From positions 1 through 40,085 of IMG/VR virus record IMGVR_UViG_3300029319_000139: 40,085 nucleotides of DNA; one strand, given 5' to 3'. Positions within the stretch are counted from its first letter, which is position 1, and every line of letters begins with the position of its first letter. The notes beneath the pieces are model-generated. The model worked only from the letters and a program-made list of their open reading frames with translations. It did not search any database and was not told where the DNA came from. Origin of the DNA: a virus. This document shows, in pieces, positions 12,801 through 38,482 of this stretch. The translations under genes were made by a program, and so were the position numbers.

Positions 12801-15800
12801 TCTTCACCAACAACTCTGGCTGTCCATGCTCCTCTAATAAGTATGAATGGTTTCCAAGCTCTATTCATATAGTTATCTCCTAGCTTAGATAACCAACCTT
12901 GAACTAATGCATTAGCATCTGTGTCATCTGCAGATAAATCGAATCTTTTTCTTGCAGTTTTAACAGTCATCTTCAACCAATCTGTTATACCTTTTTGGTC
13001 ATTTGTTTGCAATTCAAATAATTCAGCAACTGGTTTTGCTAACATTTCTTCAAATTCAGAAACTTCAAACTCTCTTCCATCTTCTAAGTCAACAGTTTTT
13101 CTTGCAGAAGTTACTCTTGGTCTTTTAGAACTAGGAATTATTCTTGTCCAAAACTCTCTTGCTGGTGAAAACACTCTTAAAAATAATCTTGCATCTGGTA
13201 AAGGTAATGAACCTGATGCTAAATACTCTGAAATTAAATGTGCCGTAGGTCTTCCAACAACTGATTCTAATTCACCAAAATTAGCACGTTTCATTAAAGT
13301 ATTTGTAGCTGTTGTCAATACATCATCTTCTGTTGTTATGTCAGAAAAATAATTAAGTATTTGGTTTGGAGATACTTTTGCATTTTTAAATACTTTAAAT
13401 CCTGCTTTAGTATCAAAAGCATCTTGTGTTTTTGTAAATAAAGTTTTTAGTACAGGAGTTATTTTTGATGCATCTCCTGTTCTAGGTCCAATAATATTTA
13501 CAGTTGGATATTTTTTAATTAATTCATGTATTTCTTGAACAAATTTATTATCTATTTTTTGTGCGGTATCAACTATTACTAATGGTCTGTTACCTTGATA
13601 TACACCTTGCTCAGGTATTTTAGCTTGTGACCACTTACCTTTTCTTGCATAGTTTATTGCACCAGTAGTTCCTTTACCTGCTGGATTAGTAACAGAATCT
13701 ATTATTGCAATAGTAATATCTGCATCATCAATATTCTTTTGACTTCTTGCAACAAAATATTTATTAGCTGGCATCTTGTCATTTATATTTTCAGAAGTTA
13801 ATCTATTTCTTTCTCGTTGTAATGCCTCTAATTTTTTTACAGCAGAGTCATCATTTATGTCATTAAGACGTGCTTGTAATTGTGTTTCGTGTTTTGCAAG
13901 AGCTTGTTTTTCAGTATTAATTCTTTTTTGTAAGTTTTTATATGCTCTTTGATAACCAGGCATATCAAAACTATCATATTGCAATATTTTATTTGGACCT
14001 TCTTCTACTAAGTTTGTTGCATATCTAAGTATTGCTGCTTTAGATTCTAGCTCTAATCTTGCACCAATAGATAATTCAGGAGCATCTCCATTTTTTATTC
14101 TTACATCATCGGCATCTAATGCTTTTCTTGCAATATAACCAGCTTGTAATTTATTTTGTATTTTTAAATCATCTCTTACTGGAGATAACTCTAATTCTTT
14201 ATATGCTTTTTCTAACCCTTTTATTCTTGCTTTGTCTTCAGCAACTCTTTGTTTTAATCTATTGTATGTTGTAGTTAAAGCTCCAACTCTTTTATTTTTA
14301 AATACTGCTTCACTTTCAGTTCTTTTTATTGTTTCATCAATAAATCCAACTTGTCTTGCTGCATCATCTGTTAATCCATAATCTATTAGTTCTGCTTCGT
14401 GAAGCCCATAACTACCTGTTTTAGTTTGTGCAGAGTCTCCAAAACCAGGAGTTCCTGTACCTCCTGTTTCTATATCAAGTTCTTTTGCAACCCTTAATGC
14501 TTGTATTTCTGTACCTCTACCACCATTTGATATAACTTTTGCAGGTAAGATTTCTGCCTCTGCTAAATCTGTTGGTACTCTTTGTGCTGAATCAACTTTA
14601 GATAAAAAGTCATCTTTTATATCTTGTATAGTTCTTAATCTTCCAGACTTTTTAAAATTAGAGTTACTTATTATTTCATCAATAATATCTAAGGTTTGTT
14701 CCATGTTAAAAGAAACATTATCTAAATTATTTCTACCTTTATCTAATATGTCAATTTTTTGTAAGTTCCACGCTTCTTCGCCATATGCACTATAAAAATA
14801 TTTATTAGCTTCATCTACACTAGCGACTAATTTACCAACTTGATTTACCACACCTCTTGGAATATTTACAGCTTCGAATTTATCCATGATGTGTCTAAGA
14901 ACACCACCTTCACCTCCGTATATATCTAACATCATATTTAATTTTTGGAGTGATGCAGGACCTCCTTCAAGAGCTTGTATTACTTCGTCATCCATAGCGT
15001 CAACTATTCTATCTAATGCTTTTGTTGCAATATCATCATCAACTTTTGCAAACTTCATAAAATCTTTTAGTTCAAAAAATGTTCTATTTAAATCATCTGT
15101 TTGTATTCTTGGTGCAGGAAAAACATTAAACAATCTTTCAAAAACACTATTTTTGCTGTTTAATTTCATTGCAGTTCTGAATCCAACTGCTGATGCTTTA
15201 TCACCATATACAAATTTTGCTGCAGCTTTTGACAATGAACCATTAAATACTAATGATGTAGGGTCAAGTCTTTTCATAGCATCTGCAGTAGGGTCTTCAG
15301 CAGCATTAACAAGAATATTTTTTATTGCTTGTTTGTCTTTAGTATCTCTTAATCTCCTATAAAGTTTTGCTCCACCTGCTGTTCTTGCTATTGTTTTATC
15401 TGAAAGTGATTTACCTTGTCCACCTAATAATATTTGTACTTCATCGTATGTATCCGCTTGAGCAAACAAATCTGCAATATCATCACCAGCTTTTGTTTCA
15501 AAATAAAACTCTCTAGCTTTTGGTATCTTAACTGTTTTTCTAACAACACCATCAATAAGTCCACTTGCTTTTTTAGTTTCGGTAAGATTAAAAGATTTTT
15601 TCATTGCACCAGCTTTTGCTAATGCACCACCAGCATAAGTTGAAGGGTCAGTAAGTACTGTATAAACTCCATCAATAATTCCTGATAATAAATTAAATGA
15701 TTTTGTTCCTGGTTCAAATACTTCAACAGCAGCTACACGACCAGGAGATAATTTAACAGTACCTTTTCTACCTCTATAAGTACCTGCATGACCTTCTCTT

Positions 15801-16492
15801 GTATTCATTTCTAATTGTGTAATTGGTTTACCATAATATTCTTGTATGATTTGTTTTACTTCATCAGGATTTGCACCTCTACCAACTAACTCTTTATATA
15901 CTTCTGTATTCTCTGCAACTGTTGAATTACCAAAATATCCTTCACCTAAGTTTACTTTTCTTCCTTGACGTAATTCTTGAAAGGCTCTAGTAGCAACTGT
16001 AGGTCCTTGGTCTTTTAAAGATTGTACAAACTCATTTCTACCATTAGGGTCAAGTAATGGTACTAATGTGCCTATACCTGTAAAAGCAAGTAATGGATTC
16101 ATTTTTCTTGCAGCGTAATATTTCATACCTGCTTGTCCATATTTTTTAACAAACTGTGATGCAGACTCCATTCCAACTACTGCACCTCTAATAGCACCTC
16201 TTCCTGCAGCTTTTACACCCTCCCACCATGATGTTTCTTTTTCTAGAAATCTTTCTACAATACTTGTAAATTCTGGTGAGTCTTTTGTTAATCCCATTAA
16301 TGCACCTGCAACTTGTACATCTTTTGGTAAGAAACCATAAGTCTTAGATATCTCAGACATGTTATAAGGTATTGATGGATTGTTAGCAAAGAAATTATCT
16401 ATCTGTTGTGCTTGTCCTAGTAATTCTTCTTTGTATATATCATCCTGGTCTTCTTGCCAGGGAGCTACCCAGTTCCACCTGAAAGCGGTCAT
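9863..16492 (-). CDS. Giant internal virion protein with interrupted SLOG-like domain
   Basis: At 2209 residues this is by far the largest gene in the window. Residues ~85-150 include Gly/Ala-rich amphipathic or hydrophobic helices (AAGRGAIRGAVVGMESA). Residues ~651-700 (VISNGGRGTEIQALRVAK, then a GGTGTPGF loop) and ~911-1010 (ARSQKNIDDADITIAIID, then RPLVIVD and VNIIGPR) match the two halves of a SLOG/putative molybdenum-carrier Rossmann domain, split by a ~200-residue charged helical insert. The C-terminal ~800 residues include LRLAFPFAEVYIEIMGTW, a type of segment I associate with giant phage inner-virion proteins. It lies between portal and capsid in a chain of overlapping genes. A DNA-ejection or internal-core role is inferred. 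No RNA polymerase motif of the N4 type was found. Confidence 0.75.
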   Translation of the reverse strand: MTAFRWNWVAPWQEDQDDIYKEELLGQAQQIDNFFANNPSIPYNMSEISKTYGFLPKDVQVAGALMGLTKDSPEFTSIVERFLEKETSWWEGVKAAGRGAIRGAVVGMESASQFVKKYGQAGMKYYAARKMNPLLAFTGIGTLVPLLDPNGRNEFVQSLKDQGPTVATRAFQELRQGRKVNLGEGYFGNSTVAENTEVYKELVGRGANPDEVKQIIQEYYGKPITQLEMNTREGHAGTYRGRKGTVKLSPGRVAAVEVFEPGTKSFNLLSGIIDGVYTVLTDPSTYAGGALAKAGAMKKSFNLTETKKASGLIDGVVRKTVKIPKAREFYFETKAGDDIADLFAQADTYDEVQILLGGQGKSLSDKTIARTAGGAKLYRRLRDTKDKQAIKNILVNAAEDPTADAMKRLDPTSLVFNGSLSKAAAKFVYGDKASAVGFRTAMKLNSKNSVFERLFNVFPAPRIQTDDLNRTFFELKDFMKFAKVDDDIATKALDRIVDAMDDEVIQALEGGPASLQKLNMMLDIYGGEGGVLRHIMDKFEAVNIPRGVVNQVGKLVASVDEANKYFYSAYGEEAWNLQKIDILDKGRNNLDNVSFNMEQTLDIIDEIISNSNFKKSGRLRTIQDIKDDFLSKVDSAQRVPTDLAEAEILPAKVISNGGRGTEIQALRVAKELDIETGGTGTPGFGDSAQTKTGSYGLHEAELIDYGLTDDAARQVGFIDETIKRTESEAVFKNKRVGALTTTYNRLKQRVAEDKARIKGLEKAYKELELSPVRDDLKIQNKLQAGYIARKALDADDVRIKNGDAPELSIGARLELESKAAILRYATNLVEEGPNKILQYDSFDMPGYQRAYKNLQKRINTEKQALAKHETQLQARLNDINDDSAVKKLEALQRERNRLTSENINDKMPANKYFVARSQKNIDDADITIAIIDSVTNPAGKGTTGAINYARKGKWSQAKIPEQGVYQGNRPLVIVDTAQKIDNKFVQEIHELIKKYPTVNIIGPRTGDASKITPVLKTLFTKTQDAFDTKAGFKVFKNAKVSPNQILNYFSDITTEDDVLTTATNTLMKRANFGELESVVGRPTAHLISEYLASGSLPLPDARLFLRVFSPAREFWTRIIPSSKRPRVTSARKTVDLEDGREFEVSEFEEMLAKPVAELFELQTNDQKGITDWLKMTVKTARKRFDLSADDTDANALVQGWLSKLGDNYMNRAWKPFILIRGAWTARVVGEEQIRMWAADLDNVFTHPLSAFAWILGKDRQSVLRRVRGYEDLDIDRTIQRGMFSIRDNELLGDSIYHKSSMSMSHNGILDGDKLKRTFAFKRVEKGKEGYHGAATSEIFQLVDDPIAAEIATLKGSVDDIKSGLQNIKDRFWNEDGDLSSWRTALAYGSDEAGKYQKIKILNDRKWADDYIDSVAARVHYKTGGKYRVTEVKPDGTRVVFEDMEGMTRVRKSPQSEIEFELIETGDAELLEHISRGRNAIDDKAILVDIDGKTVAIGRKASIANKKAYTKWLAKKDPYTQAHVMKKSVFDMDADRVSSYDAAVERLFSIVMSAPTNRLSRSPAFRQFYWRFIETNIAYFDDGLRQQIKQQAKASNLPKKFIKSLDTTGKVSADEGKLLRLADLDALDDTAKAYALAETQSLLYDLNRRHVVSDMLRLAFPFAEVYIEIMGTWSRLLNQKKFLATRKITRGIDGARKADLNNDDEGFFHTDAMTGEEMFFFPGSEFLTNWMFEGNRDSRTIKNPVTGEELAAPDAKINLKGYVSSLNMIVGNPAPGLGPLVGIPASKILPETELIDKVFFPYGRETKSALSPATYANALIPSWAKKAMSMGASDPDMQRGFANTYKDVIKMFVTTGLYDDSTPAKQARMLEEAKKTAMFLTAARTFIQFAAPTGAVIRYDIEVAPGGQLFVDPLQTKGDDPKHHFYGMSILTDAYYRILAKYGGDQVLATKEFVNQFGLDPTALLVSKSKEIKKRSYTDEGVKFARDNEEILKIYPDVGYYLFPDNPLDEFSFVAWADSFADRDRVDLSEDEYVTAVRQAQGRLAYEYQRRLLFESGAHNNLTPERKYEILTDYRMALRQEYPGYGQTSTTAKAIDAESKRLQLIDMIEREGERAVTLPNGESLALKELPSMQGLVQYLEIRDSILAQIQRRDGPRATLKRQEYTYFREVLRRKAQELFSQFPDFYYVYDDILRFEVEEEFTDVFTPMEY

Positions 16493-22169: not shown

Positions 22170-22349
22170 TTAAGTTACATCTTCTTTTTTTTCTTTTTGC
22201 CTTTTTTCATTCCGTAATGTTTTGGCATTAAGTTTACCTCCATATCGCTTGTTATATTCTGTACAGCCAAGATTACCACACTTTCGGTAGTCTGACTCTA
22301 TTTTGAATTTAGTATGACATGCTTTGCACGCCAACACTAATCTACTCAT
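22170..22349 (-). CDS. Zinc-ribbon miniprotein, 59 aa
   Basis: A 59-residue protein with CKAC (8-11) and CGNLGC (24-29), the four ligands of a small zinc ribbon, followed by a Lys/Glu-rich helical tail. The start overlaps the stop of the nuclease gene (ATGA), so it is translated from the same mRNA. Such ribbons bind nucleic acids or proteins. A second frame with a strong ribosome site lies inside its 3' half. Confidence 0.65.
   Translation of the reverse strand: MSRLVLACKACHTKFKIESDYRKCGNLGCTEYNKRYGGKLNAKTLRNEKRQKEKKEDVT
22175..22228 (-). CDS. Possible nested 17-aa lysine-rich peptide
   Basis: Inside the 59-aa gene, in another frame, an ATG preceded by GGAGG at a good distance (8-9 bases) opens a 17-codon frame (MPKHYGMKKGKKKKKKM). 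The ribosome site is better than that of the host gene. It could be a true micropeptide resembling the Lys-rich neighbours, or chance in an A-rich stretch. Confidence 0.35.
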   Translation of the reverse strand: MPKHYGMKKGKKKKKKM

Positions 22350-22879
22350 GCAATAAGTATCTCATCTACAATATGGTAGCTGACTGTAATCTCCTTTACG
22401 ACATTCGTAGCTAATAAATCCTTTTTTGGCACAAGCAGGGTTCGTGAAAAAAAATTTTTATTTTGGGCTTCTACTATGTTATATTTCCTGTCATACATCC
22501 AGTCTATAATGTAAGGCACTAACTCTTGTGGATTCCAATAATATAAAGTCGAAGTTGGGTATTCCCAGTAGAATAAAAAATCTGCAAACGTTTTAAGAGC
22601 AGCACCGATTTTTTTGTCTCCGTTATCTTGAACAATCATTATCTCTAATGCAAAGTTGTCTGTATCTTTTATTTGTGTATCTGTTTTTACTTCAACATAC
22701 CTAGCACCTAATTCATTGTTTATAATAAATAAATCAGCACCTTTCATTTGGTCATCGAATGTAACATCCCTGCAAATAAACTGTCGTTTACCTTCTTCGT
22801 CTGTTTTTGATTCATAATATTTTTTGACAAGGGTCTCCCCTTTTTTACCAATAGCATTTTGTGTTTCGAAATCAAACAT
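22346..22879 (-). CDS. PD-(D/E)XK-type nuclease-like protein
   Basis: The 177-residue product has the order of acidic residues expected for the restriction-endonuclease/Holliday-resolvase fold: GKKGE (E15) on a first helix, GADLF (D49), then YVEVKTD with E63-V-K65 as the E-x-K pair. Length and motif spacing fit a compact single-domain nuclease, and the C-terminal half has no clear motif. It is the first gene of the leftward operon, with AGGAGG just upstream. Roles could be branched-DNA resolution before packaging, host DNA degradation or nicking. The fold assignment is by motif only. Confidence 0.6.
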   Translation of the reverse strand: MFDFETQNAIGKKGETLVKKYYESKTDEEGKRQFICRDVTFDDQMKGADLFIINNELGARYVEVKTDTQIKDTDNFALEIMIVQDNGDKKIGAALKTFADFLFYWEYPTSTLYYWNPQELVPYIIDWMYDRKYNIVEAQNKNFFSRTLLVPKKDLLATNVVKEITVSYHIVDEILIA

Positions 22880-22897: not shown

Positions 22898-22926
22898 TTG
22901 TTTTATTCTAGCATTATGTTTATACT
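22898..22926 (+). promoter_or_regulatory. Candidate rightward promoter of the structured RNA
   Basis: TTGTTT (22898-22903), a 17-base spacer and TATACT (22921-22926; five of six consensus bases) predict a start near 22933. That is just before the first stem-forming sequences of the structured region. No coding frame lies within 850 bases downstream, which fits a promoter for a non-coding RNA. Confidence 0.45.
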
Positions 22927-22934
22927 ATCCACAA
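22905..22934 (-). promoter_or_regulatory. Candidate leftward promoter of the late operon
   Basis: On the minus strand TTGTGG (22929-22934) and TAGAAT (22905-22910; five of six consensus bases) are separated by 18 bases, placed just before the nuclease gene. It overlaps the rightward promoter on the other strand, so the two would compete for polymerase. The -35 is only a partial match. Confidence 0.35.
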
Positions 22935-23755
22935 CAAATAGTTTTTTTTAACTACAGAGTTACAGGTAAGAGCTATCGGACGGCAAAAAGCTGACTGCAT
23001 CTTATAGATGGACTGGGATTACCACAAAGTCAGTACCCAAGGACTCTTGAAAGAAAAAAATTCAAAAAATATGCATATATGTCCGCTATGCCCGAAAACA
23101 CACTACACAGTCTACTAGTAAATAATACGTGTTTTAGACTATACATACTACTAAAACGTGTTAATATACTACATAGGGAGACTAGTGTAGTCCTTGTTTG
23201 GTAATACCTGTAAGTAACCTGTAACAATAAACATCACGCAAGTGATGGTTCAACAAACATCTTGCTGGTCTCCCACTTTTTTCTAAGTAAAATTACCAGA
23301 ATATCTCGGAAACCTTACGTATATACATACCCCACCCCCTATGTTAAGACATAGGTAGCCCGACACAACGCACGGAGCATACCCCCCATTACTCTATAGT
23401 TACTCTGTAATCAAACGTTATGTCAATGAAAAGAAACGTAATACTCTAGGTACATACTGTAGTGTTTTGTATAACAAATGGTAGCCCTATGCATTGAACC
23501 ATACAAAGTACAATCATCATTGCTCAAAGTACGTTATCCCAACAAAACATTGTCCCCAAGACTGCATATCAACGCCAAGCACTTGTGCATGTCGTTGCAT
23601 ATACATGCAGTCATTAACGGGGTACTACTACTAGTTCCCCCTTACAGAAGTAGCTTTGCTACTTGGTCGGGGTGTGCTTCTAGCACATGTTTCCTTATGA
23701 GTAAAGTATTTCTACGAAATACCTAGCAATAAAAAAACGCCCACAGGCGTTTTGA
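22933..23755 (+). ncRNA. Candidate large structured non-coding RNA, about 820 nt
   Basis: No convincing gene lies here, but the stretch is packed with perfect inverted repeats. Examples are CATCT/AGATG (22998-23010), GTTTTAG/CTAAAAC (23131-23157), CATCAC-GCAA-GTGATG with a GNRA loop (23232-23247), CCTATGT-TAAG-ACATAGG (23338-23355), and GACTGCAT/ATGCAGTC (23560-23612) enclosing CAACG/CGTTG and a CUUG-loop hairpin. Three hairpins with 7-bp stems and 3-base loops follow (23648-23722). GNRA and CUUG loops appear on the plus strand only. A promoter precedes it and a terminator hairpin ends it. Long-range pairing GTTACAGGT (22959) with ACCTGTAAC (23217) would make a pseudoknot. Size and style recall GOLLD-type phage RNAs, but I cannot match a known consensus. 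Confidence 0.65.
23734..23754. terminator. Bidirectional intrinsic terminator
   Basis: AAAACGCC / GGCGTTTT with loop CACA forms a GC-rich stem, with T runs on both strands (four on plus, seven on minus). On the plus strand it would end the structured RNA before the next gene. Confidence 0.7.
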
Positions 23756-23825: not shown

Positions 23826-24206
23826 ATGAGTAATTACGTAAATAAAGAAAAGAACTACGACCCTATTGGCTCGTCTGGATACTTCGGCGTAAAACGCCTT
23901 AGTGTTCCGAGCCGAAAAGGGCAGAGTTCTTTTTATCTTGTTAAGATGAATGACTTTTGGAGTTCCAAAAGTAATTCTGTTGGAACTGTTATTAATCAAG
24001 AGCCATTGACAAACTATGATTGTATCATACAGTTTGAGGCTCTTGTAAATAACAAGAAGTTCCAACTCAACAAGAACGGAACAATGCCTAAAGAACTTGT
24101 ATCCATGATGGGAACTAACGAACTCGCACGCGAGTTCGAAGGAGTTCCATCATTAGACCAAATCAAAGAAATCAAGTCTGGTTGGTCTAAAAATCGTAAG
24201 GCATAG
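23826..24206 (+). CDS. 126-aa protein encoded within an extensively paired mRNA
   Basis: A reading frame with a good ribosome site (AAAGGA, 7 bases before ATG) encodes an unrecognised, polar 126-residue protein (MSNYVNKEKNYDPIGSSGYF...) without membrane segments. The mRNA is highly paired: GGCTCG/CGAGCC around GGCGT-AAA-ACGCC (23868-23913), ACTTTTGG/CCAAAAGT (23953-23972), CAAGAGCC/GGCTCTTG around AAACT/AGTTT and ATGAT/ATCAT (23997-24045), ATGATGGGAACT/AGTTCCATCAT around CGAACTCG/CGAGTTCG (24105-24153), and TTAGACCAA/TTGGTCTAA (24153-24190). It uses CGC, CGA and CCG codons that the neighbours avoid. It stands alone between two terminators. It may be coding, a structured RNA with a chance frame, or both. 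Confidence 0.55.
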   Translation: MSNYVNKEKNYDPIGSSGYFGVKRLSVPSRKGQSSFYLVKMNDFWSSKSNSVGTVINQEPLTNYDCIIQFEALVNNKKFQLNKNGTMPKELVSMMGTNELAREFEGVPSLDQIKEIKSGWSKNRKA

Positions 24207-24217
24207 TTCCTATGTTG

Positions 24218-24261
24218 TATAGCTCGGGGGGATTTATCCCCCCTTGCTATATATTTTTTTT
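24218..24261 (+). terminator. Strong intrinsic terminator
   Basis: TATAGC and GCTATA flank GGGGGGA-TTTA-TCCCCCC, giving two stacked stems with a small internal loop, followed after two bases by a run of eight T. It ends the transcript of the 126-aa frame. Confidence 0.85.
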
Positions 24262-24264
24262 ATT

Positions 24265-24480
24265 CTAAAAAAAAGTTTTAGCTAGTATCATACCGAAACC
24301 TACCCCCCCATACAAGAAAGAGAACCCCATACAGACCTCAAAAATTTTTTTTTCTTTCGGATATGCTATGGGGAAGTGTTCTCTTTACACGCGTGAAAAG
24401 GGATTGTCAAGTCTTGCTCTTACATGGGGAAAGTTGCAAAGCAAAAATTTTGGCGTAAGATTTTCGGCAAGACATTTTTT
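24265..24480 (+). promoter_or_regulatory. Structured leader or small RNA with pseudoknot and attenuator-like stem
   Basis: AAGAGAAC-CCCATA (24318-24331) pairs with TATGGG and, after a 5-base bulge, GTTCTCTT (24367-24385). CCGAAA (24293-24298) pairs with TTTCGG (24355-24360) inside that loop, forming a possible pseudoknot. An 8-base palindrome CACGCGTG follows at 24388. GTCTTGC-TCTTAC (24411-24423) then pairs with GTAAGA and GCAAGAC (24455-24473), followed by six T, like an intrinsic terminator just before the zinc-finger gene. It could be a regulatory leader with an attenuator, or a separate small RNA. No known riboswitch was recognised. Confidence 0.5.
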
Positions 24481-24519
24481 GTTCTTATATTTATTTATAT
24501 TGTAGAAAGGAAATAGATT

Positions 24520-25002
24520 ATGGGTAGAAAAAAGTATGTTCAACATACTCCTAAGACAAAGAAAGCATTGACTAAGGTTGTCGAGAGAAATGGTAAGTTA
24601 GTTCATATCTATGTAGATACGGGATTACCTATCATCTCTAGTACAGCAGAGTATATGCACAATGTAGAGAATGCAGTTATACCTCATACTGACTGTAGGT
24701 ATTGTGGTAAATCTACTGACGCTATATCAAGTCTTTGTTACGAGTGTAGAGAATTGAACAAGGATTTAGAGATGAAGATGAAAAGGATTGCTAAGGTAAC
24801 GAGAGAGCAAGTCAAGGAAGGTACTGTTACTGAAACCGATAAAGGTTTAGTTCCTGACAAGTTCGGGGTTACTGATGCAAGTTGGAAGCCCTATGCAGAT
24901 ACGCCTGTCATAGAGGAAGCCTATAGAACATGCAGTAAATGTTACATTGTCTTACCAAGAGACTTTGGTCGTAAAAGACTTTGTGAATCCTGCAGAAGCT
25001 AA
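24520..25002 (+). CDS. Double zinc-finger protein, 160 aa
   Basis: A 160-residue basic protein with two treble-clef or ribbon-like Cys4 modules: CRYC...CYEC (Cys 59, 62, 73, 76) and CSKC...CESC (Cys 138, 141, 155, 158), joined by a charged helical linker. The N-terminus is Lys-rich. Cys4 modules of this kind usually bind nucleic acid, so a transcription or RNA-binding factor is plausible. AAAGGA precedes the ATG. The gene starts the rightward early operon and lies between two structured RNA stretches. Its own mRNA also has several nested stems (for example AGTATGT-TCA-ACATACT near the start). Confidence 0.65.
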   Translation: MGRKKYVQHTPKTKKALTKVVERNGKLVHIYVDTGLPIISSTAEYMHNVENAVIPHTDCRYCGKSTDAISSLCYECRELNKDLEMKMKRIAKVTREQVKEGTVTETDKGLVPDKFGVTDASWKPYADTPVIEEAYRTCSKCYIVLPRDFGRKRLCESCRS

Positions 25003-25600
25003 GTAATTAGCTAGAGTACATAGCTTAATATACAGTCCCGATTAGTGTATACGTACGGGTTATGTACTCTGTGGTAATTATATTTATAGAGTGAGTATGC
25101 CTTTCTACAACCCTGTAGACATACCAACTACTACTAAGATATGCTCACTCTGTAAAGCTACCTACCAAAAGACCAAAGCCCAAGTACTTAATCGCTTTCG
25201 TGCTTGGGTTGTAGGTAGCTAGATACTCATGCAGAACTATGTTCTCCCTGTTAAAAATTGTTATTAGTCGTGTGGGTATCTAGCTATCTATGAGTAAGAG
25301 TTGTATTCAGCCCTGTTTTTCAACGACTGAAAGTAGATAGCTTAGTGCAGATATTTCATAATGTGCCTCCGTACAAATATGAGAACTCTATATACAAAGA
25401 GTTATGGGTAAGTTAACTGCTTATCAGCGTAGTAGGTGTTTATATTTTTCCCTACATAGATTGTTACGCTGTATATAGAGCGATAGTGTCTGCACTAGGC
25501 TATCTATACAGATAGCTTTCATACGAAGTTCGGTTAGGGTTAGTTCTCTATAAATTTATTTCCATAAAATAATCGCAGAGACTAGCCCTTGCCGAGAACC
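25003..25600 (+). ncRNA. Candidate second large structured RNA, about 600 nt
   Basis: This gap between genes is a chain of long stems. They include AGAGTACATA/TATGTACTCT (25013-25070), a stem of up to 15 bp from 25085-25099 with 25140-25154 around TCTACA-ACCC-TGTAGA, and AGCTACCTAC/GTAGGTAGCT (25156-25220) around an 11-bp stem (25177-25187 with 25200-25210). Further on are TAGATAC/GTATCTA (25220-25282), AGCTATCTA/TAGATAGCT (25282-25342), TAGTGCAGA/TCTGCACTA (25343-25497) around CTCTATATAC/GTATATAGAG and AGCGTA/TACGCT, GCTATCT-ATAC-AGATAGC (25499-25516), and a long imperfect stem at 25528-25599. No terminator or promoter is obvious, so it may be cut from the operon mRNA. Size is near that of ROOL RNAs; identity unproven. 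Confidence 0.62.
25097..25222 (+). CDS. Doubtful 41-aa CxxC frame inside the structured RNA
   Basis: A 41-codon frame (MPFYNPVDIPTTTKICSLCK...) contains one CxxC pair, like other miniproteins of this operon. Its ribosome site is weak, and it lies exactly across two long RNA stems, which explain the sequence better. Kept only as a possibility. Confidence 0.25.
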   Translation: MPFYNPVDIPTTTKICSLCKATYQKTKAQVLNRFRAWVVGS

Positions 25601-25621
25601 ATAGAAAGAGAGAGATAAATT

Positions 25622-25771
25622 ATGATATGTGATTTGTGTCATCAAGACACATACATAAAGTTATTGGTAGAAGCCAACGTGAAATCCTCTGTTTATCACA
25701 GAGTTTTGTGTCGCACTTGTGGTTACCAAACAGTAAAAAGAATGAATACAAAGAAAGGTGGTGTTTATTAA
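25622..25771 (+). CDS. Zinc-ribbon miniprotein, 49 aa
   Basis: A 49-residue protein with CDLC (3-6) and CRTC (30-33), a Cys4 zinc ribbon, and a basic end. Its ribosome site is GAAAGAGAGAGA, directly after the last stem of the upstream RNA. The stop overlaps the next ATG (TAATG), so the two genes are coupled. Nucleic-acid binding is likely, but the target is unknown. Confidence 0.65.
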   Translation: MICDLCHQDTYIKLLVEANVKSSVYHRVLCRTCGYQTVKRMNTKKGGVY

Positions 25772-26301
25772 TGCCAGTGTATAAGAAACGCCCTGATGAT
25801 GAAGAAGCTAAAGAGTATCTAAAGCATATTCAAAGTCTGGGATTTGAAAACCATTTGCAGTATCGACCTACAAGGTTGAAGACTTTATACGGAGCTAACG
25901 TTGTGCAAATTACTCCAAGTGAAGAAAGAGTAATCAAGCATAAGTTCTCTGTTGAAGCTGCGAATTATCCAGAAGCTATGACAAAGCTATGGGAAACTAT
26001 GATACAAACTGCTGTAGCAACACAGCTAAAAGCTATTGGCTCTTTGATAAAAGCATTAGTCAAAGACCAAGACTTTAAAACAACAGAAGAAATACTAGAT
26101 AATGTAAGCAATATGCTTACTGATGACACATTTGCAGAAACATTCTTTGATGCAATGTATCAAACACAACCCGACATGATTGTCTTAGGTAATCCTGAGA
26201 TTGTTGGCTCTATGCAAGTAGGTAGCATAAATGAAGAACAAGCTAGTGATGTTGTAGAGAAGCTAATCAAAGATGTGTTGGGGGGTGATGAAGAAGAATG
26301 A
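25771..26301 (+). CDS. 176-aa acidic early protein, unknown
   Basis: The start is the ATG at 25771 (MPVYKKRPDDEEAKEYLKHI), because it overlaps the previous stop by one base; longer in-frame extension upstream is antagonised by the 49-aa gene. The protein is mixed alpha/beta with a helical middle (residues ~65-100) and an acidic tail (GGDEEE). It overlaps the next gene by four bases (ATGA). No known family recognised. Confidence 0.65.
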   Translation: MPVYKKRPDDEEAKEYLKHIQSLGFENHLQYRPTRLKTLYGANVVQITPSEERVIKHKFSVEAANYPEAMTKLWETMIQTAVATQLKAIGSLIKALVKDQDFKTTEEILDNVSNMLTDDTFAETFFDAMYQTQPDMIVLGNPEIVGSMQVGSINEEQASDVVEKLIKDVLGGDEEE

Positions 26302-26477
26302 GTAAAGCAAAACTAGAACACAATAGGGATACATTTTCTGTTGTGGTTGATGATGACTTGTATCTAAGAGTAAAACTTGGACTTACTCAAAAGTATCTTA
26401 CACAAGAGCAGTTAGATATTGTTGATGAAAAGACGGGAAAAATGGTGCAAAGAATACTCAAAGAGAAAGGAAAATAA
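26298..26477 (+). CDS. 59-aa early protein
   Basis: A 59-residue charged protein (MSKAKLEHNRDTFSVVVDDD...). Strand-like residues 12-27 are followed by two helices. It is joined to its neighbours by ATGA and TAATG overlaps. It could be a small DNA-mimic or regulator, but nothing specific was recognised. Confidence 0.6.
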   Translation: MSKAKLEHNRDTFSVVVDDDLYLRVKLGLTQKYLTQEQLDIVDEKTGKMVQRILKEKGK

Positions 26478-26674
26478 TGAGACTAAAAGAAGATAGTGAA
26501 ATCTTTGAATACGAAGACAGTAATCCTAAGCGAGTTACTAATGAACTTGCTGTAGATTTTGTTTTCCCTATGGACGTATCTAAAGATGAAGCGATTAAGT
26601 TTGTTACAGAACAACTTGAAAACTATCCAATGGATTGGAGTATCAATATGTGGACTGTACCAAATGACGAGTAA
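26477..26674 (+). CDS. 65-aa acidic early protein
   Basis: A 65-residue acidic protein with a strand (ELAVDFVFPMDV), a helix (SKDEAIKFVTEQLEN) and a final strand, in a ferredoxin-like beta-alpha-beta order. The start overlaps the previous stop by one base, and an 11-base overlap joins it to the next frame. No family recognised. Confidence 0.6.
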   Translation: MRLKEDSEIFEYEDSNPKRVTNELAVDFVFPMDVSKDEAIKFVTEQLENYPMDWSINMWTVPNDE

Positions 26675-26855
26675 AAGCGAGATAGAACTATTTATTCATT
26701 GTAGTAAGTGCCTTAAAGAAAAGCCAAGCTACCTAACACCAAGAGATTATTCAATGGTGGAAGTTGGTAGGACAAGTATTGGTTTGCAAGTTTGGTGCAT
26801 AAGACACGAAGAAAGCATAGTTCACTTGGACTTTAGAGAAGTTGAAAGGAAATAG
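26664..26855 (+). CDS. 63-aa zinc-finger early protein
   Basis: The ATG at 26664 gives 63 residues (MTSKSEIELFIHCSKCLKEK...). CSKC at 13-16 and WCIRHEE near residues 44-50 provide Cys3His ligands, a pattern I recall from widespread small phage zinc-finger proteins (CxxC, then G-L-Q-V-W-C-x-R-H). An alternative upstream start would run inside the previous gene and lacks a ribosome site. Function unknown. Confidence 0.65.
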   Translation: MTSKSEIELFIHCSKCLKEKPSYLTPRDYSMVEVGRTSIGLQVWCIRHEESIVHLDFREVERK

Positions 26856-26856
26856 T

Positions 26857-27000
26857 ATGAAATGTAAGAACTGTAATCAAGAAGTTAACAAAGCAGTAGT
26901 GTCAATAGACGATATTTTGGCTCACCCTGATATAACTCTTGATGCAGATTATTGGATAAAACAATCACACAAAAAAGAATGTAAAGGAGTAAAGACATGA
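26857..27000 (+). CDS. 47-aa zinc-binding early protein
   Basis: A 47-residue protein with CKNC (3-6) and a later H-x-x-x-C (HKKEC, 38-42), a possible Cys3His site. GAAAGGA lies before the ATG, and the stop overlaps the next ATG. It is another member of the run of metal-binding miniproteins in this operon. Confidence 0.6.
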   Translation: MKCKNCNQEVNKAVVSIDDILAHPDITLDADYWIKQSHKKECKGVKT

Positions 27001-27521
27001 GTGAGATTGACAAAGTAAGAGAGATGAGTGAGAGACTGAAGAACTGTGCTATTACAGTAGACATTCTTCGCTATCTCAATGACTTGGCTATTGATATGGG
27101 CTACAACAGAAGTCTAAATCCAGAGTTTCTTGATGAGACAATGGATACAGAACTAGCTATGAAAATGGACATAGTTGCTGACACTAGATTTCCTGTAGTT
27201 TTGTTGATGGCTACACCTCATTACTACAAGAATGGAACAGCAACTGATATGCATGTAAGACTAATGCTTGATGTTGTTGTCAAAAGCAAAGTCGGTGTTC
27301 CACTTGACAAGGAGTATGCAACTGTAACAGTTGATGTTCCTGTGGAAGTAATCAATCATCTACCGAACATACCAGAAGTTAGGTGGATTGATACAGATAC
27401 CGATAGAAAAGAATGGATAAAAGTATGGGACAAAGTAGATAAGTCTAAGCTAAGTGAAGACTTTATCAAAGACTTTGAGACCTACTTACAAGAAAGGGAA
27501 GAAAGAGATGAAGAAGAATAA
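26997..27521 (+). CDS. 174-aa early protein, unknown
   Basis: A 174-residue acidic protein. The N-terminal half is helical; the middle has alternating strands (RFPVVLLMA, HVRLMLDVVV, ATVTVDVPV); the end is a charged helix (LQEREERDEEE). No motif was recognised. It overlaps the AAA+ ATPase gene by 14 bases, so it could be a partner or substrate of that system, but this is guilt by neighbourhood only. Confidence 0.6.
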   Translation: MSEIDKVREMSERLKNCAITVDILRYLNDLAIDMGYNRSLNPEFLDETMDTELAMKMDIVADTRFPVVLLMATPHYYKNGTATDMHVRLMLDVVVKSKVGVPLDKEYATVTVDVPVEVINHLPNIPEVRWIDTDTDRKEWIKVWDKVDKSKLSEDFIKDFETYLQEREERDEEE

Positions 27522-28197
27522 TTGGGAATTGCTAGACCTAGTTATTGCTCATTCGCCAAGAATACTTTTGTATGGTGTTGCTGGTACGGGCAAAACTTAT
27601 CAAGCTAATACTCTCAAACTAAAGAAAAATCAAAATAGCTACAATACTACGCTTACTGCAGACAGCACGGCAAGTGAATTGATGGGGCATTACATAGCTA
27701 CTGATAAAGGTGGTTTTGTCTGGAAAGATGGCGTTGGTATTAAGAGCTGGAAAGAAGGTGCAAGACTTGTTATCAATGAGATAGACCATGCTGGTGTAGA
27801 TGTTATGACATTCCTACATGCTCTACTTGATGACAAGGAGTTCGCAAAGTTTACTTTACCGAACATGGATAAAGAAACTGTAAGACCAGACAAAGACTTT
27901 CAAGTTATTGCAACTATGAATGGTACGCCTGATGACTTACCAGAGCCTCTTGCAGATAGGTTTCCTATCAAACTAGAGATTGATGAAGTACACCCAAGTG
28001 CTTTGGCTTCTCTACCAGCTAAACTAAAAGCTGTTTACTACGACTACAACAATGGGCAGTTCTCTGTTCGTAAATGGATTGCTTTCAAGCAACTGCTTGA
28101 TAGTGGTGTTGATGAAAAAGACGCTTGTAGTGTTGTATTCAAAGATGATGCTTATGATATTCTTGAAGCACTAGGTGTGCAAGATGTCATTATTTAG
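27508..28197 (+). CDS. MoxR/CobS-type AAA+ ATPase
   Basis: The start is ATG 27508 (MKKNNWELLDLVIAHSPRIL), giving 229 residues; GGGAAG lies upstream. Walker A is GVAGTGKT (23-30), Walker B LVINEID (87-93), sensor 1 ATMN (135-138), followed by LADRF (148-152) and a short helical lid. This is the compact MoxR/CbbQ/CobS type. Such ATPases work with von Willebrand A partners as metal-insertion or protein-remodelling chaperones. The next gene encodes exactly such a partner with a 14-base overlap. Target in the phage cycle is unknown. Confidence 0.85.
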   Translation: MKKNNWELLDLVIAHSPRILLYGVAGTGKTYQANTLKLKKNQNSYNTTLTADSTASELMGHYIATDKGGFVWKDGVGIKSWKEGARLVINEIDHAGVDVMTFLHALLDDKEFAKFTLPNMDKETVRPDKDFQVIATMNGTPDDLPEPLADRFPIKLEIDEVHPSALASLPAKLKAVYYDYNNGQFSVRKWIAFKQLLDSGVDEKDACSVVFKDDAYDILEALGVQDVII

Positions 28198-29827
28198 CAG
28201 TAGTGTAAAAAGCTCAATCAAAGTAAAGAGCCAAAAGATACTTCCTAACTTATCTCTTGTTGGAGATGAAGTAAGGAAACATGATGTTGTATACTCTGCA
28301 ACTCCATGGGAAGAAGAACTAAAAGACAGAAATGTCATTGCAGTTCCTAAATCTATCTTGTCTAACAAAATGACAGATAGAGAACATGTAGTTAAGGCTC
28401 TAATTATGAAGCATAAACTATTCAAAGGTTGGCGTTTTCTAAACAAGAAGCCTGATTTATTGTATTATGCTTTGTATCTTTGGTCGTTCAAAAGACATGC
28501 GCACTATCAAAAGGGAATGCGAAAAAAGTTACTAACTCCTGAAGAAATCAGTAGTTTACTTAGATTGCACCGAGATACAGAAGATACAGATGAATTGTCT
28601 TATGAACAGAAAAGATTGATTGAGCTAGCAAGGGAAGTACACCTTCCAGAGATAGACACTAAGTTGTATGAGATTTCTCTCATGAGACTTATTGGTAACC
28701 TTTACAGAACTAACGATATTGCTATGTTTATTAGAGATTACATTAGAGAAAATATCTTTACTGTGTATTCTTACAAAGCAAACAATAGAGAGTTGGTAGA
28801 AGTTGCAGTAGAAAGTTACGTTGATGTTCGTTTACCAAAAAATGTAATTCAACAAGACAAAAACTATCTCAACATGCTAGTAAGTTATTGTCTTACAAAA
28901 GTGCAAACTGTTCAAAGATACGCCATGAATACACAAACGGGACATTGGTATTGGAATGAAGATACGGGACGTTGGAGTAGAAAAGAATATTGGGACAAAA
29001 CTAAAGTAAGAAGAAGAATTAACAAAATCTACAACTTGCTTGACAATACAAACTCCAATGATAGCTATGTAAGTGGTGGACTACCTAGTGCTAGTTATGT
29101 TGAAGTTCCAGAAGATGATACAAAACTAACATTACCTCCAGAACTCAAAGGCAAACTTGCCGAAGATATTATGGAAGATGCCGATAGAAAGCACAAACGT
29201 GCTTTTGAATGGTATTCTGGTAATGGTACTCATGGTAAGGCAAAGACTTACAAATTTCGTGGTACTAGAAAAATACACAAAGCTATTAGAGAGCTAAGGC
29301 GAAACAATAGTGATGTTGGCGTTGTACCTAGAAACATGCACAGAATGACTACAGACAGAAAAGTATTCTCTACAAAGAGAAGCGTAGCTGGGGGTAGTAT
29401 GCTGATTGACTGTTCTGGAAGTATGGGCTTGAGTACACACGATATTGAAGAAATTATCAACGACTTACCTGCTAGTACTATAGCTGGGTATGTTGGTTAC
29501 ACAGGTGAAAGGTCGGGATTTCATGGCGACCTTCGTATCATTGCTAACAATGGTCGTATTGATGATGAAGCCATGCGAGAATTGGGAATGCATGGTAACA
29601 ACTCTATTGACAAAGAAGCTCTTGAATGGTTGGCTCAACAACCAGAGCCAAGAATTTGGGTTAGCGACCAACAAGTTGTTGGTGTTTCCGAAAATGGTGG
29701 TTTTCCTACCAACTTGGATAGACAAGGGCTAGATGAAATCAAACGAGTTATGATGTTGAACAACATAATTCCAATAGAAGAAGTGGAAACTGTTAAGGCA
29801 GTAGCTAAAAAACTTGCCTTAAAATAA
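28184..29827 (+). CDS. CobT-like protein with von Willebrand A domain
   Basis: A 547-residue protein (ATG 28184, AGGTG upstream). The long N-terminal region is helical and charged. The C-terminal ~160 residues carry the MIDAS signature DCSGSMG (409-415) after a hydrophobic strand, with a later strand ending VSD (Asp495). This matches the VWA half of the MoxR-VWA and CobS-CobT pairs; the acidic linker typical of CobT is short here. It is coupled to the ATPase gene and ends at a strong terminator. Assembly with the ATPase into a remodelling complex is known for the family and inferred here. Confidence 0.8.
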   Translation: MSLFSSSVKSSIKVKSQKILPNLSLVGDEVRKHDVVYSATPWEEELKDRNVIAVPKSILSNKMTDREHVVKALIMKHKLFKGWRFLNKKPDLLYYALYLWSFKRHAHYQKGMRKKLLTPEEISSLLRLHRDTEDTDELSYEQKRLIELAREVHLPEIDTKLYEISLMRLIGNLYRTNDIAMFIRDYIRENIFTVYSYKANNRELVEVAVESYVDVRLPKNVIQQDKNYLNMLVSYCLTKVQTVQRYAMNTQTGHWYWNEDTGRWSRKEYWDKTKVRRRINKIYNLLDNTNSNDSYVSGGLPSASYVEVPEDDTKLTLPPELKGKLAEDIMEDADRKHKRAFEWYSGNGTHGKAKTYKFRGTRKIHKAIRELRRNNSDVGVVPRNMHRMTTDRKVFSTKRSVAGGSMLIDCSGSMGLSTHDIEEIINDLPASTIAGYVGYTGERSGFHGDLRIIANNGRIDDEAMRELGMHGNNSIDKEALEWLAQQPEPRIWVSDQQVVGVSENGGFPTNLDRQGLDEIKRVMMLNNIIPIEEVETVKAVAKKLALK

Positions 29828-29854
29828 CAAGCTATAACTCTCTTTCTAGCTTGT

Positions 29855-29890
29855 AAAAATAGCTCGGTGTAAAAGCCGAGCTATTTTTTT
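29855..29890 (+). terminator. Intrinsic terminator of the MoxR-VWA operon
   Basis: ATAGCTCGG and CCGAGCTAT form a 9-bp stem with loop TGTAAAAG, followed by seven T. A weaker hairpin CAAGCT/AGCTTG precedes it (29828-29853). Confidence 0.9.
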
Positions 29891-29936
29891 AATCTTTCTT
29901 ATGCATTGCATATAAATATATTTATCTATACAGTTG

Positions 29937-29965
29937 TTGCAATCTAATCACAATGTGCTTATAAT
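29937..29965 (+). promoter_or_regulatory. Promoter for a leaderless transcript
   Basis: TTGCAA (29937-29942), a 17-base spacer and perfect TATAAT (29960-29965). The ATG of the next gene lies six bases after the -10, where transcription should start, and no ribosome site is possible. This arrangement is typical of leaderless mRNAs, which are common in actinobacteria. Confidence 0.75.
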
Positions 29966-29971
29966 TAGCGT

Positions 29972-30247
29972 ATGAATACAGAAAATACTAAACAAGACAT
30001 TGCTAGTGATATTGATAAAGCTACTAAAAGAACTCGTGGTGGTATGGAACATTGGTACGAAAGACTACCTAAAGAAGCTGTACCTTTCATTAATACACTT
30101 GCAGACAGGGTTGAAAATCACGGACAGAAGGCTAACGCTAGAGTTGTTAGCGAAATACTCATGGATAAATATAACTTCGCAGTATCAAGAAGCAGAGTAA
30201 GAGTATGGCTAGTTAACTTAGAGAAACGCTATGACGAAAAAAATTGA
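29972..30247 (+). CDS. 91-aa HTH-like DNA-binding protein
   Basis: A 91-residue basic protein. Residues ~50-85 (ENHGQKANARVVSEILMDKY, then FAVSRSRVRVWLVNLEKRY) look like a helix-turn-helix with a basic recognition helix. It is the first gene of a transcript made from a leaderless promoter and overlaps the phosphoesterase gene by 17 bases. A regulator or DNA-binding accessory factor is likely; no family assigned. Confidence 0.6.
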   Translation: MNTENTKQDIASDIDKATKRTRGGMEHWYERLPKEAVPFINTLADRVENHGQKANARVVSEILMDKYNFAVSRSRVRVWLVNLEKRYDEKN

Positions 30248-31295
30248 TAACGAATTAGCAAAACTGATAGCTGAAGCTGAGAGCGATAAGATAAGAGACC
30301 TTAAAGACACAAATGCACGATTACTCAAACAGATTGATAAACTCAAAGATAAGAAAGCCGACATGGTAGAAGCCGTGTTTTCTGGTGCTAGAGATGGAAT
30401 GCGAACACTTCAATTTCCAGATATATCTAATCCTAAAATCAAACATAAACCCAAAACTCAAACAGAAATTTGTGTCCCATTACTCTCTGATATTCAGCTC
30501 GCAAAGAGAACCCCAGACTACGACACTGCTGTAGCTGAGGTTAGAGTTAGAAGATACGCAGAAAAGATAGTTAAGCTCACAGAAATACAAAGAGCTACTC
30601 ACAATGTAAATCAATGTGCAGTGCTTGCTCTGGGGGACATTGTTGAAGGTGAGCTTATATTTCCAGGACAGTCACATTTAATAGACAGTTCATTATACAG
30701 ACAAGTGACAGTTGATGGTCCAAGAATATTGCACACGTTTTTTTCAATATTACTAGAAAATTTTAAAGAAGTAGACGTATACTGGGTAATAGGTAATCAT
30801 GGAGCTTTGGGTGGTAGGTCTCGTAGAGATTACAACCCTGAGACAAACGCTGATAGAATGTTAGGAAAAATACTACAGACAATGTTTGCGGGAGAAAAAC
30901 GCATCAAGTTTATAATTCCTGAAGGCGTTGATAATCACTGGTATACTGTTGCTAGACTTGGTCCAAAAGCCAAGTTTTTTTGTTTTCATGGAGATAATAT
31001 TCGTGGAACAATGGGTGTGCCATTCTATGGTTACAACAAAAAAATTCTGGGTTGGAAAGCACTTGCATCACAGGGACTGATGGAAGACTTTACACACGCA
31101 GTCTGTGGTCATTACCATACACCAACATCTTTATACATTAATGATGTACGTGTATGGGTTAATGGTTCTACAGAAAGTTACAACAGCTACGCACAAGAAC
31201 AACTAGCAAGTATGGGTAGACCTTCACAATTTTGTTTGTTTGTGAAACCTACTAAAGGAGTTACTGCTGAGTATCTTGTCAATTTAGAGGAATAA
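30231..31295 (+). CDS. Calcineurin-like metallophosphoesterase
   Basis: A 354-residue protein with an N-terminal coiled coil (residues ~5-45) and then the metal-site motifs in order: LSDIQ (85-89), ALGDIVEG (133-140), VIGNHG (186-191), FHGD (252-255) and CGHYH (292-296). The first motif reads D-x-Q instead of the usual D-x-H, a variant I recall in phage members. Enzymes of this fold cleave phosphodiester or phosphomonoester bonds with two metal ions. In phages they are linked to DNA processing or cyclic-nucleotide signals; which applies here is unknown. Confidence 0.85.
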   Translation: MTKKIDNELAKLIAEAESDKIRDLKDTNARLLKQIDKLKDKKADMVEAVFSGARDGMRTLQFPDISNPKIKHKPKTQTEICVPLLSDIQLAKRTPDYDTAVAEVRVRRYAEKIVKLTEIQRATHNVNQCAVLALGDIVEGELIFPGQSHLIDSSLYRQVTVDGPRILHTFFSILLENFKEVDVYWVIGNHGALGGRSRRDYNPETNADRMLGKILQTMFAGEKRIKFIIPEGVDNHWYTVARLGPKAKFFCFHGDNIRGTMGVPFYGYNKKILGWKALASQGLMEDFTHAVCGHYHTPTSLYINDVRVWVNGSTESYNSYAQEQLASMGRPSQFCLFVKPTKGVTAEYLVNLEE

Positions 31296-31442
31296 ATGAG
31301 TACAAAAACAAAAGTGGTTGCCGTTGAGTATGCAGGGGTTGGAAGTATACCTCAGTTTATTGTTAAAATAGACGGCTCATATCAATATGTACCTGTGAAA
31401 ACAGGTGTAAATCCTATTGATTCACTAACAGAAGAAGAATAA
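31296..31442 (+). CDS. 48-aa small early protein
   Basis: A 48-residue protein (MSTKTKVVAVEYAGVGSIPQ...) with a strand-rich middle and an acidic end, immediately after the phosphoesterase gene (no gap), with GAGGAA before the ATG. No family recognised. Confidence 0.6.
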   Translation: MSTKTKVVAVEYAGVGSIPQFIVKIDGSYQYVPVKTGVNPIDSLTEEE

Positions 31443-31466
31443 AAGCTAATACAAAAGGAGAGTGGA

Positions 31467-32162
31467 ATGGCGAAATTCAATTTGGACGACTATGAATTGG
31501 TCGAAGATAGATTAAAAAAATATTGGAAAGATAATCCTGAAGGTATGATTAGTACAAATGTTGTACACATAACTGAAGATGGAACTTGTGTAACAATCAA
31601 AGCAGATGTTACTGACAATAATGGAAGGCTTGTAGCTACAGGTATTGCTCAAGAGACCAAAGGAGATGGGTTTGCAAACACAACATCATGGGTGGAAAAC
31701 TGTGAAACATCTGCGATAGGTAGAGCATTAGCTAATTGGAAGTATCAAGGAAATAAAAAGGCAAGACCGAGCCGTGAAGAGATGGCAAAAGTCAAGAGAA
31801 ATTCAGTAACGCCAACCACTGATAAAAAGGAGAAGGACTTAGCTCAGGAGGATGGGAAAAAGGCTATGCCTCCGTCCTCCACTTCTCCAAAGTCTGAGGA
31901 TGTAATCATAGTTACAGAAGGTACTATGAAACCTCAATGTTTATCTTGTGGTAGTGATTTGTGGGACAACAGGCAAGACAAAGCTAGTGGAAAAGTTAAA
32001 ACTACATATCCTGATTGGAAATGTAAAGACAAAACATGTACAAGAATTTGGTACATAGACAGTTATGCCAATGATAAGAAAGCTCCTGAACAGTGGTATA
32101 TGCCTGAAATGCCTAAAGCAAAGAGCATAGACGACATTAAAGAAGGCGAAGCTCCATTCTAA
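31467..32162 (+). CDS. Probable ssDNA-annealing or binding recombination protein
   Basis: A 231-residue protein. Residues ~10-90 contain strands followed by WVENCETSAIGRALANWKY (75-93). The ETSAIGRALA pattern is found in phage proteins related to single-strand annealing (Rad52/ERF-like) or ssDNA binding. After a flexible Pro/Ser/Lys linker, a Cys4 zinc module follows (Cys 158, 161, 186, 191). GGAGAG lies before the ATG. It probably acts in recombination or DNA metabolism. It is the last gene of the rightward arm. I cannot separate annealing from simple ssDNA-binding function. Confidence 0.6.
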   Translation: MAKFNLDDYELVEDRLKKYWKDNPEGMISTNVVHITEDGTCVTIKADVTDNNGRLVATGIAQETKGDGFANTTSWVENCETSAIGRALANWKYQGNKKARPSREEMAKVKRNSVTPTTDKKEKDLAQEDGKKAMPPSSTSPKSEDVIIVTEGTMKPQCLSCGSDLWDNRQDKASGKVKTTYPDWKCKDKTCTRIWYIDSYANDKKAPEQWYMPEMPKAKSIDDIKEGEAPF

Positions 32163-35653: not shown

Positions 35654-35681
35654 ATTATATCATATTACTTAGTCCTGTAAT
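35654..35681 (-). promoter_or_regulatory. Candidate extended -10 promoter of the lysis genes, leaderless
   Basis: Minus strand: ATTACA (35676-35681; four of six), a 16-base spacer and TGA-TATAAT (perfect -10 at 35654-35659 with TGn extension). The predicted start falls on the ATG at 35647. It has the same -10 to ATG spacing as the promoter at 29937. Confidence 0.5.
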
Positions 35682-38474: not shown

Positions 38475-38482
38475 AAAATTTC

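Follow-up and report, generated by a model that had tools for sequence, protein, structure and literature searches.

A structured RNA in the divergent region of a phage genome

This locus raises the question of what a phage keeps between its divergent gene blocks. The window, by which we mean the whole 40,085-nt stretch of DNA analyzed, is an IMG/VR virus record. Its large genes run leftward from 22879 to 1864 and from 39823 to 32218, and rightward over 23826-32162, giving a map with one divergent point, the region in question, and one convergent point near 32 kb. The candidate RNA therefore occupies the only divergent promoter region of the phage, at the head of a rightward operon that we infer, as we do its timing, to be the early operon.

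22934-23755, plus strand: whole candidate RNA, ∼820 nt, between the divergent genes 22346-22879 (minus) and 23826-24206 (plus); supported by the fold z-score, a three-sequence consensus fold, and the lack of a conserved ORF

A sequence-only reading of this region had proposed a structured phage RNA of giant size that might represent a new class, and held that folding no better than shuffled sequence, absent covariation, or a conserved protein frame would refute it. Upon folding, the plus strand reached −204.9 kcal/mol (z −5.1) and none of 20 shuffles was equally good, so that the proposal passed on this count; the minus strand gave a z-score of −3.4. Several of the perfect short stems it listed are present, as is its GCAA hairpin (23232-23247). 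Its remark that the region holds no convincing gene was borne out as well. We found no conserved ORF in the RNA region, where ORFs of at least 50 aa differ in frame, size, and place among relatives, and this lack of a conserved frame rules out a protein-coding reading. When the whole 823 nt were folded as a consensus of the three closest sequences, the result was −333, compared with −249 to −274 for 12 column shuffles, with six compensatory pairs (0-4 in shuffles) and 17 broken pairs (28-45 in shuffles). Four of the six compensatory pairs fall in the 3′ half. In the structures counted, G-U pairs outnumbered A-C pairs by 16 to 0, 13 to 0, and 78 to 12, which implies that the RNA strand is the plus strand. 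We are thus practically certain that 22934-23755 encodes a real, conserved structured RNA on the plus strand rather than stems arising by chance.

The terminase, portal, and capsid of the window find their nearest likeness in actinobacteriophage genes, at 23-29% identity, and an Actinomycetota MAG contains a contig identical to one relative, L082. On these grounds a marine actinobacterium is the likely host, although this has not been shown. A 58-kb contig of an Actinomycetota MAG (G001:C30; loci L142, L143, L263, and L264) repeats itself after ∼43.9 kb and is therefore probably a phage genome, circular or circularly permuted, that was read beyond its start and binned with its host. Elsewhere in the window, a minus-strand ORF of 2209 aa without annotation here spans 9863-16492, and related genes stand in two tandem pairs at 35665-37097 and 37545-39478; phrog_7084 and phrog_2295 each have two members here, and a glycine-rich domain is present in one of the phrog_2295 genes.

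Homologues and size range

Relatives were gathered by a terminase search (80 loci) and a motif scan (63 stretches in all). By blastn, the intergenic region was recovered from ∼35 of the 80 terminase loci at 67-93% identity, with the best agreement across the first 460 nt. Across marine IMG/VR contigs, 99 loci carry the 5′ domain of the window (type I) and at least 136 carry a different one (type II). There is overlap among these loci, which, having been collected by motif or terminase similarity, are no census. Conservation is best in the 5′ ∼400 nt, while the 3′ third is variable and far below the 5′ half.

The RNA differs in length by lineage, from ∼290 nt in L149 and ∼450 nt in L265 to ∼820 nt in the window and up to ∼1100 nt in L061. 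In L149 and its relatives the RNA is compact, ends in a hairpin of its own, is followed by a separate promoter, and stands among other genes. L265 is a very divergent type I homologue matched by covariance model R1 (50.8 bits); its RNA lies between the terminase and the rightward genes and keeps compensatory pairs in helix H2. Judged from these sequences, the compact L149 form and the divergent L265 homologue favor a core formed by the 5′ domain, the parts that follow having expanded to differing extents among lineages.

A blastn search of cultured phages with the type I RNA and with three RNAs of type II gave no real match, a pattern scan of genome contigs returned only the phage contig in the Actinomycetota MAG and one chance match in Nitrosovibrio, and model R1, run across 42 genomes of the order of that MAG, hit the same MAG only.

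The type I 5′ domain

22948-23055, plus strand: type I 5′ domain, ∼110 nt, the best conserved part (alignment A1, covariation, covariance model R1)
22956-22959 with 23044-23047, plus strand: helix H1, AGAG/CUCU; both-side changes in 4 of 4 pairs, two pairs significant in the tree-aware test
22991-22996 with 23028-23033, plus strand: helix H2, CUGACU/AGUCAG; both-side changes in 4 of 6 pairs
22998-23002 with 23006-23010, plus strand: hairpin H3; both-side changes in 4 of 5 pairs
22965-22969 with 23019-23023, plus strand: probable pseudoknot GGUAA/UUACC; invariant in 25 of 25 sequences, so that covariation speaks neither for nor against it
23014-23017 with 23036-23039, plus strand: probable pseudoknot UGGG/CCCA; one pair goes from U-A to U-G in five sequences, the rest is invariant
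22977-22981 with 23081-23085, plus strand: probable long-range helix CGGAC/GUCCG; invariant in the 20-sequence main clade

The sequence-only reading had named covariation among homologues as its decisive test, and covariation proved strong in the type I domain, the type II domain, and helix M1. Alignment A1 holds 25 distinct type I sequences, in which 99.0% of cells are paired and 12 of 24 pairs show changes on both sides (0 of 500 shuffles did as well). Both-side cells numbered 86, compared with 20 in shuffles, and the covariation score was 0.457, compared with 0.140 in shuffles and 0.02-0.07 when the strands were slid. For instance, one pair of H2 occurs as G-C, A-U, C-G, and U-A. We also applied a tree-aware test whose null replays substitutions along a FastTree tree, which approximates R-scape but is not R-scape. 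It gave four significant pairs, all four canonical, in H1, H2, and H3; on the 20-sequence main alignment it gave only two, both in H1. The single-stranded and junction motifs GUUACAGGUAA, GCUAUCGG-ACGGC, GGACUGGGAUUACCACAA, and GUACCC are near-invariant, and the helices that join them vary freely in sequence with pairing kept. Lineages in which a U bulges between CGG and AC keep the CGGAC/GUCCG helix as well. A further complementarity, between GUUACAGGU at the start of the domain (22959-22967) and ACCUGUAAC in the middle domain (∼23213-23225), occurs in 20 of 20 main-clade sequences; this pairing would compete with the GGUAA/UUACC pseudoknot.

An alternative 5′ domain at the same locus

Loci with a terminase ∼72% identical to that of the window lack the type I domain. 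At the syntenic place they have a region of 840-1150 nt with another 5′ domain, type II, and share a recognizable middle part, clearest in comparison with the L082 clade. The type II motif scan yielded at least 120 stretches, with 70 representatives under 95% identity. In an alignment of 30 type II sequences, 91.6% of cells are paired and 16 of 23 pairs show both-side changes (0 of 500 shuffles). The domain contains a pseudoknot in which each of the two crossing helices varies, one of them (19-23/73-77) being 100% paired with both-side changes in three pairs. Helix a is imperfect at 80.5% paired, owing either to local misalignment or to real variation. Past the 5′ domain, the outer type II loci L151, L154, L165, and L198 carry several near-repeats of ACTATATGTAGTA.

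None of the 235 loci listed with either motif, some of which are overlapping pieces of one contig, has both. The well-supported branches of a 53-row terminase tree cannot be reconciled with fewer than two switches between type I and type II at the same locus; the tree program flagged long branches that join close to the root. The gene that comes first after the RNA is homologous in 67 of 69 loci of type I, compared with 24 of 99 type II loci.

The middle domain and 3′ region

23176-23185 with 23265-23274, plus strand: helix M1, closing the middle domain and followed by a U-run; 10 of 10 positions paired in 16 of 16 loci
23232-23247, plus strand: GNRA hairpin CAUCAC-GCAA-GUGAUG; loop GCAA or GCGA in 30 of 30 main-clade sequences, with stem changes
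23560-23612, plus strand: 3′-region stem-loop closed by GACUGCAU/AUGCAGUC; compensatory C-G to A-U at 23573/23594 in L002
23643-23669, plus strand: 3′-region stem-loop around GAAGUAGC/GCUACUU; compensatory A-U to U-A at 23649/23663 in L004

Both strands of M1 differ among lineages, yet all 10 pairs form in each of the 16 loci checked. Its 10 distinct versions show both-side changes at 7 of 10 pairs and 100% of cells paired, compared with 27-62% when slid (0 of 500 shuffles). We extracted the M1 strands and set them in register by hand, guided by flanking conserved motifs; RNAalifold missed M1 in the 20-sequence main alignment, where its two strands are one base out of register. A U-run follows M1 in most main-clade loci and is absent from most of the type II loci examined. 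The three-sequence consensus fold, with its compensatory pairs in the 3′ half, indicates that the 3′ part is structured too, on thinner evidence.

Other features of these parts were noted. In the middle domain of, for example, L083, L077, and L082, GGUGUAG can pair with a near CUAUACC or a far CUACACC, both conserved, which would fit a conformational switch. Past the middle domain, many relatives have a near-palindrome CGCACGGUGCA (∼23370-23381 in the window, where it reads CGCACGGAGCA), possibly a self-complementary contact. L028 carries within the RNA a ∼44-nt tandem duplication (CTTACGTATATATACTACCCCTACCCC...) that is absent from its close relatives.

Promoter, 3′ end, and downstream signals

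22898-22926, plus strand: putative promoter TTGTTT-17-TATACT; from sequence only, 8 of 12 match, no RNA data
23734-23753, plus strand: terminator-like terminal hairpin; compensatory C-G to U-A at 23741/23746 in L002
23763-23768, plus strand: TTGACA, a possible −35 of the early operon directly past the RNA; the window's own −10 is poor

The RNA had been credited with its own sigma70-type promoter and terminator. For the promoter this holds only in part. TTGTTT (22898-22903) and TATACT (22921-22926), 17 nt apart, match at just 8 of 12 positions and missed the scan cut-off, but many relatives have a TATAGT/TATACT-like −10 in the corresponding position. Use of this promoter is inferred, with transcription expected to start near 22933. 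At the other end, a terminator-like hairpin does close the region, but its U-tract is poor on the plus strand and better on the minus strand; the 3′ end of the transcript is therefore unsettled and a terminator of its own unproven. TTGACA or TTGACT recurs just 5′ of the first early gene in relatives. The −10 downstream of the RNA is poor in the window and several relatives, and read-through from the RNA into the early genes, as expected of a leader and not a free RNA, is thus possible.

The segment 22898-22926 also overlaps a possible minus-strand promoter of the leftward genes (TTGTGG-18-TAGAAT). The promoter region of many relatives holds a palindrome such as CACTATAGTG, and that of type II loci has ACTACCA...TGGTA arms. 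This overlap and the palindromes suggest an operator, with mutually exclusive early and late transcription.

Comparison with known RNAs

At its gathering threshold, Rfam matched neither the window nor any of 20 related loci, and a permissive search with the RNA regions of the window, L083, L149, and L265 gave chance matches or none; GOLLD had no match up to E=10. The RNA is therefore a new family, by membership neither GOLLD nor ROOL, which answers the Rfam check that the sequence-only reading had put forward. There is likewise no match to those of the marine metagenomic RNAs found by covariation, IMES among them (Weinberg et al. 2010; PMC2864571), that are included in Rfam 15. We found no published description of this RNA in the open-access literature, a scope that leaves out work on bioRxiv only. 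Homology, structure, plus-strand reading, domain exchange, and position at the head of the rightward operon are shown by these analyses, and the proposal of a giant structured phage RNA is supported by covariation, by a fold better than shuffles, and by the unconserved frame.

The general kind, a large structured phage ncRNA, is met in being long, covarying, non-coding, and phage-encoded. GOLLD is a large phage-encoded structured RNA of unknown role with many members above 800 nt, whose 3′ region is universally conserved and whose 5′ region is less so (PMC12286853). Our RNA likewise has one strongly and one weakly conserved half, but in the opposite arrangement, with conservation or exchange in the 5′ part and variability in the 3′ part. 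Also, GOLLD often lies near tRNA genes, whereas the window has no tRNA. GOLLD assembles into a homo-oligomeric cage. ROOL is large, pseudoknotted, and encoded by phages or prophages, with no known function or protein partner (PMC12286853). A complex secondary structure with pseudoknots is common to both (covarying in type II; plausible but invariant in type I), while the present RNA matches no ROOL covariance model, sits in no tRNA island, and has two alternative 5′ domains. Its likeness to GOLLD and ROOL is one of analogy and lies in large size, pseudoknots, encoding by phages, and the lack of a known partner.

What the RNA may do

Our preferred reading, held tentatively and at somewhat under even confidence, is an early-expressed, stand-alone, multi-domain RNA that acts in trans; its function, promoter use, early timing, and trans action are all inferred. 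Shortly after infection, host RNA polymerase would initiate at the 22898-22926 promoter. The 5′ domain would be the part that recognizes a partner, which may be a host or phage protein, polymerase, or ribosome; in type I the junctions are near-invariant while the helices drift. The middle and 3′ parts may act as a scaffold that positions or multiplies the 5′ domain, and the two 5′ types could be alternative recognition modules. We prefer trans action because the downstream gene varies and because the compact form has its own end hairpin and a following promoter. Against it, there is no expression evidence, no partner has been identified, the plus-strand terminator is weak, the poor downstream −10 leaves room for read-through, and the 3′ third falls far short of the 5′ half in conservation. 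A riboswitch for one gene was ruled out, since the first downstream gene differs among lineages and the L149 context differs. A bolder version, which is possible but doubtful, has marine phages using a modular giant RNA machine for early host takeover, perhaps RNA-only and multimeric like GOLLD and ROOL, with a shared scaffold on which pseudoknotted 5′ domains of two unrelated kinds are exchanged as cassettes.

The put element is ∼70 nt long. A put-like cis leader of the early operon, whose 5′ domain would bind the emerging polymerase so that later terminators are ignored, among them possibly a terminator made of M1 and its U-run, is unlikely in our estimate, with polymerase binding and antitermination both inferred. 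It nevertheless stays a serious rival because the position is 5′ and the window has only a weak −10 following the RNA: the domain stands at the very 5′ end of the plus-strand transcript, ahead of all early genes, whichever gene follows, and most main-clade loci have the U-run after M1. There is also a precedent in HK022 putRNA, which suppresses pausing and termination of early genes and is a structured RNA at the start of the early transcript, independent of downstream genes (PMC9378689); early timing is an inference in our case. Yet the phage RNA is much larger, 290-1100 nt exceeding a put element, its action on polymerase is only inferred, the L149 lineage has a strong-looking separate promoter past the RNA, and the U-run is missing in most type II loci examined.

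The remaining explanations fare worse. As an origin or primer RNA, the transcript would form an R-loop and prime DNA synthesis at the divergent region. This is improbable: the region is the sole divergent intergenic one and GC skew changes sign there, but that change is fully explained by gene orientation and flips also at the convergent point near 32 kb (GC skew was ruled out as origin evidence for this confounding), and priming needs no GNRA loop, pseudoknots, or exchangeable 5′ domain. A packaging RNA like phi29 pRNA, assembling on the terminase motor, could account for the place of the RNA near the terminase in most loci, adjoining it in L265. Late expression would then be expected, yet the RNA is read in the early direction, and types I and II are exchanged without a matching split of the terminase, leaving this reading highly improbable. 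We give scarcely any credence to a regulatory or structural DNA element that yields no RNA and whose stems serve as DNA cruciforms or binding sites. The palindromic promoter region of relatives and the intergenic place would suit it, but one strand is fixed by changes that are often G-U and seldom A-C, covariation extends to pseudoknots and long-range helices, and the fold z-score is better on the plus strand.

Few very large structured RNAs are known, and their function is a long-standing puzzle. To these the family adds an RNA that is widespread among marine phages, absent from Rfam, and rich in natural variants. Its compact forms of 290-450 nt are tractable for structure determination and activity assays. 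The two alternative 5′ domains at one locus amount to a natural experiment, in which the function they share should indicate the partner. Phages thus appear to employ a type of RNA device not described before, fitted with one of two interchangeable front ends.
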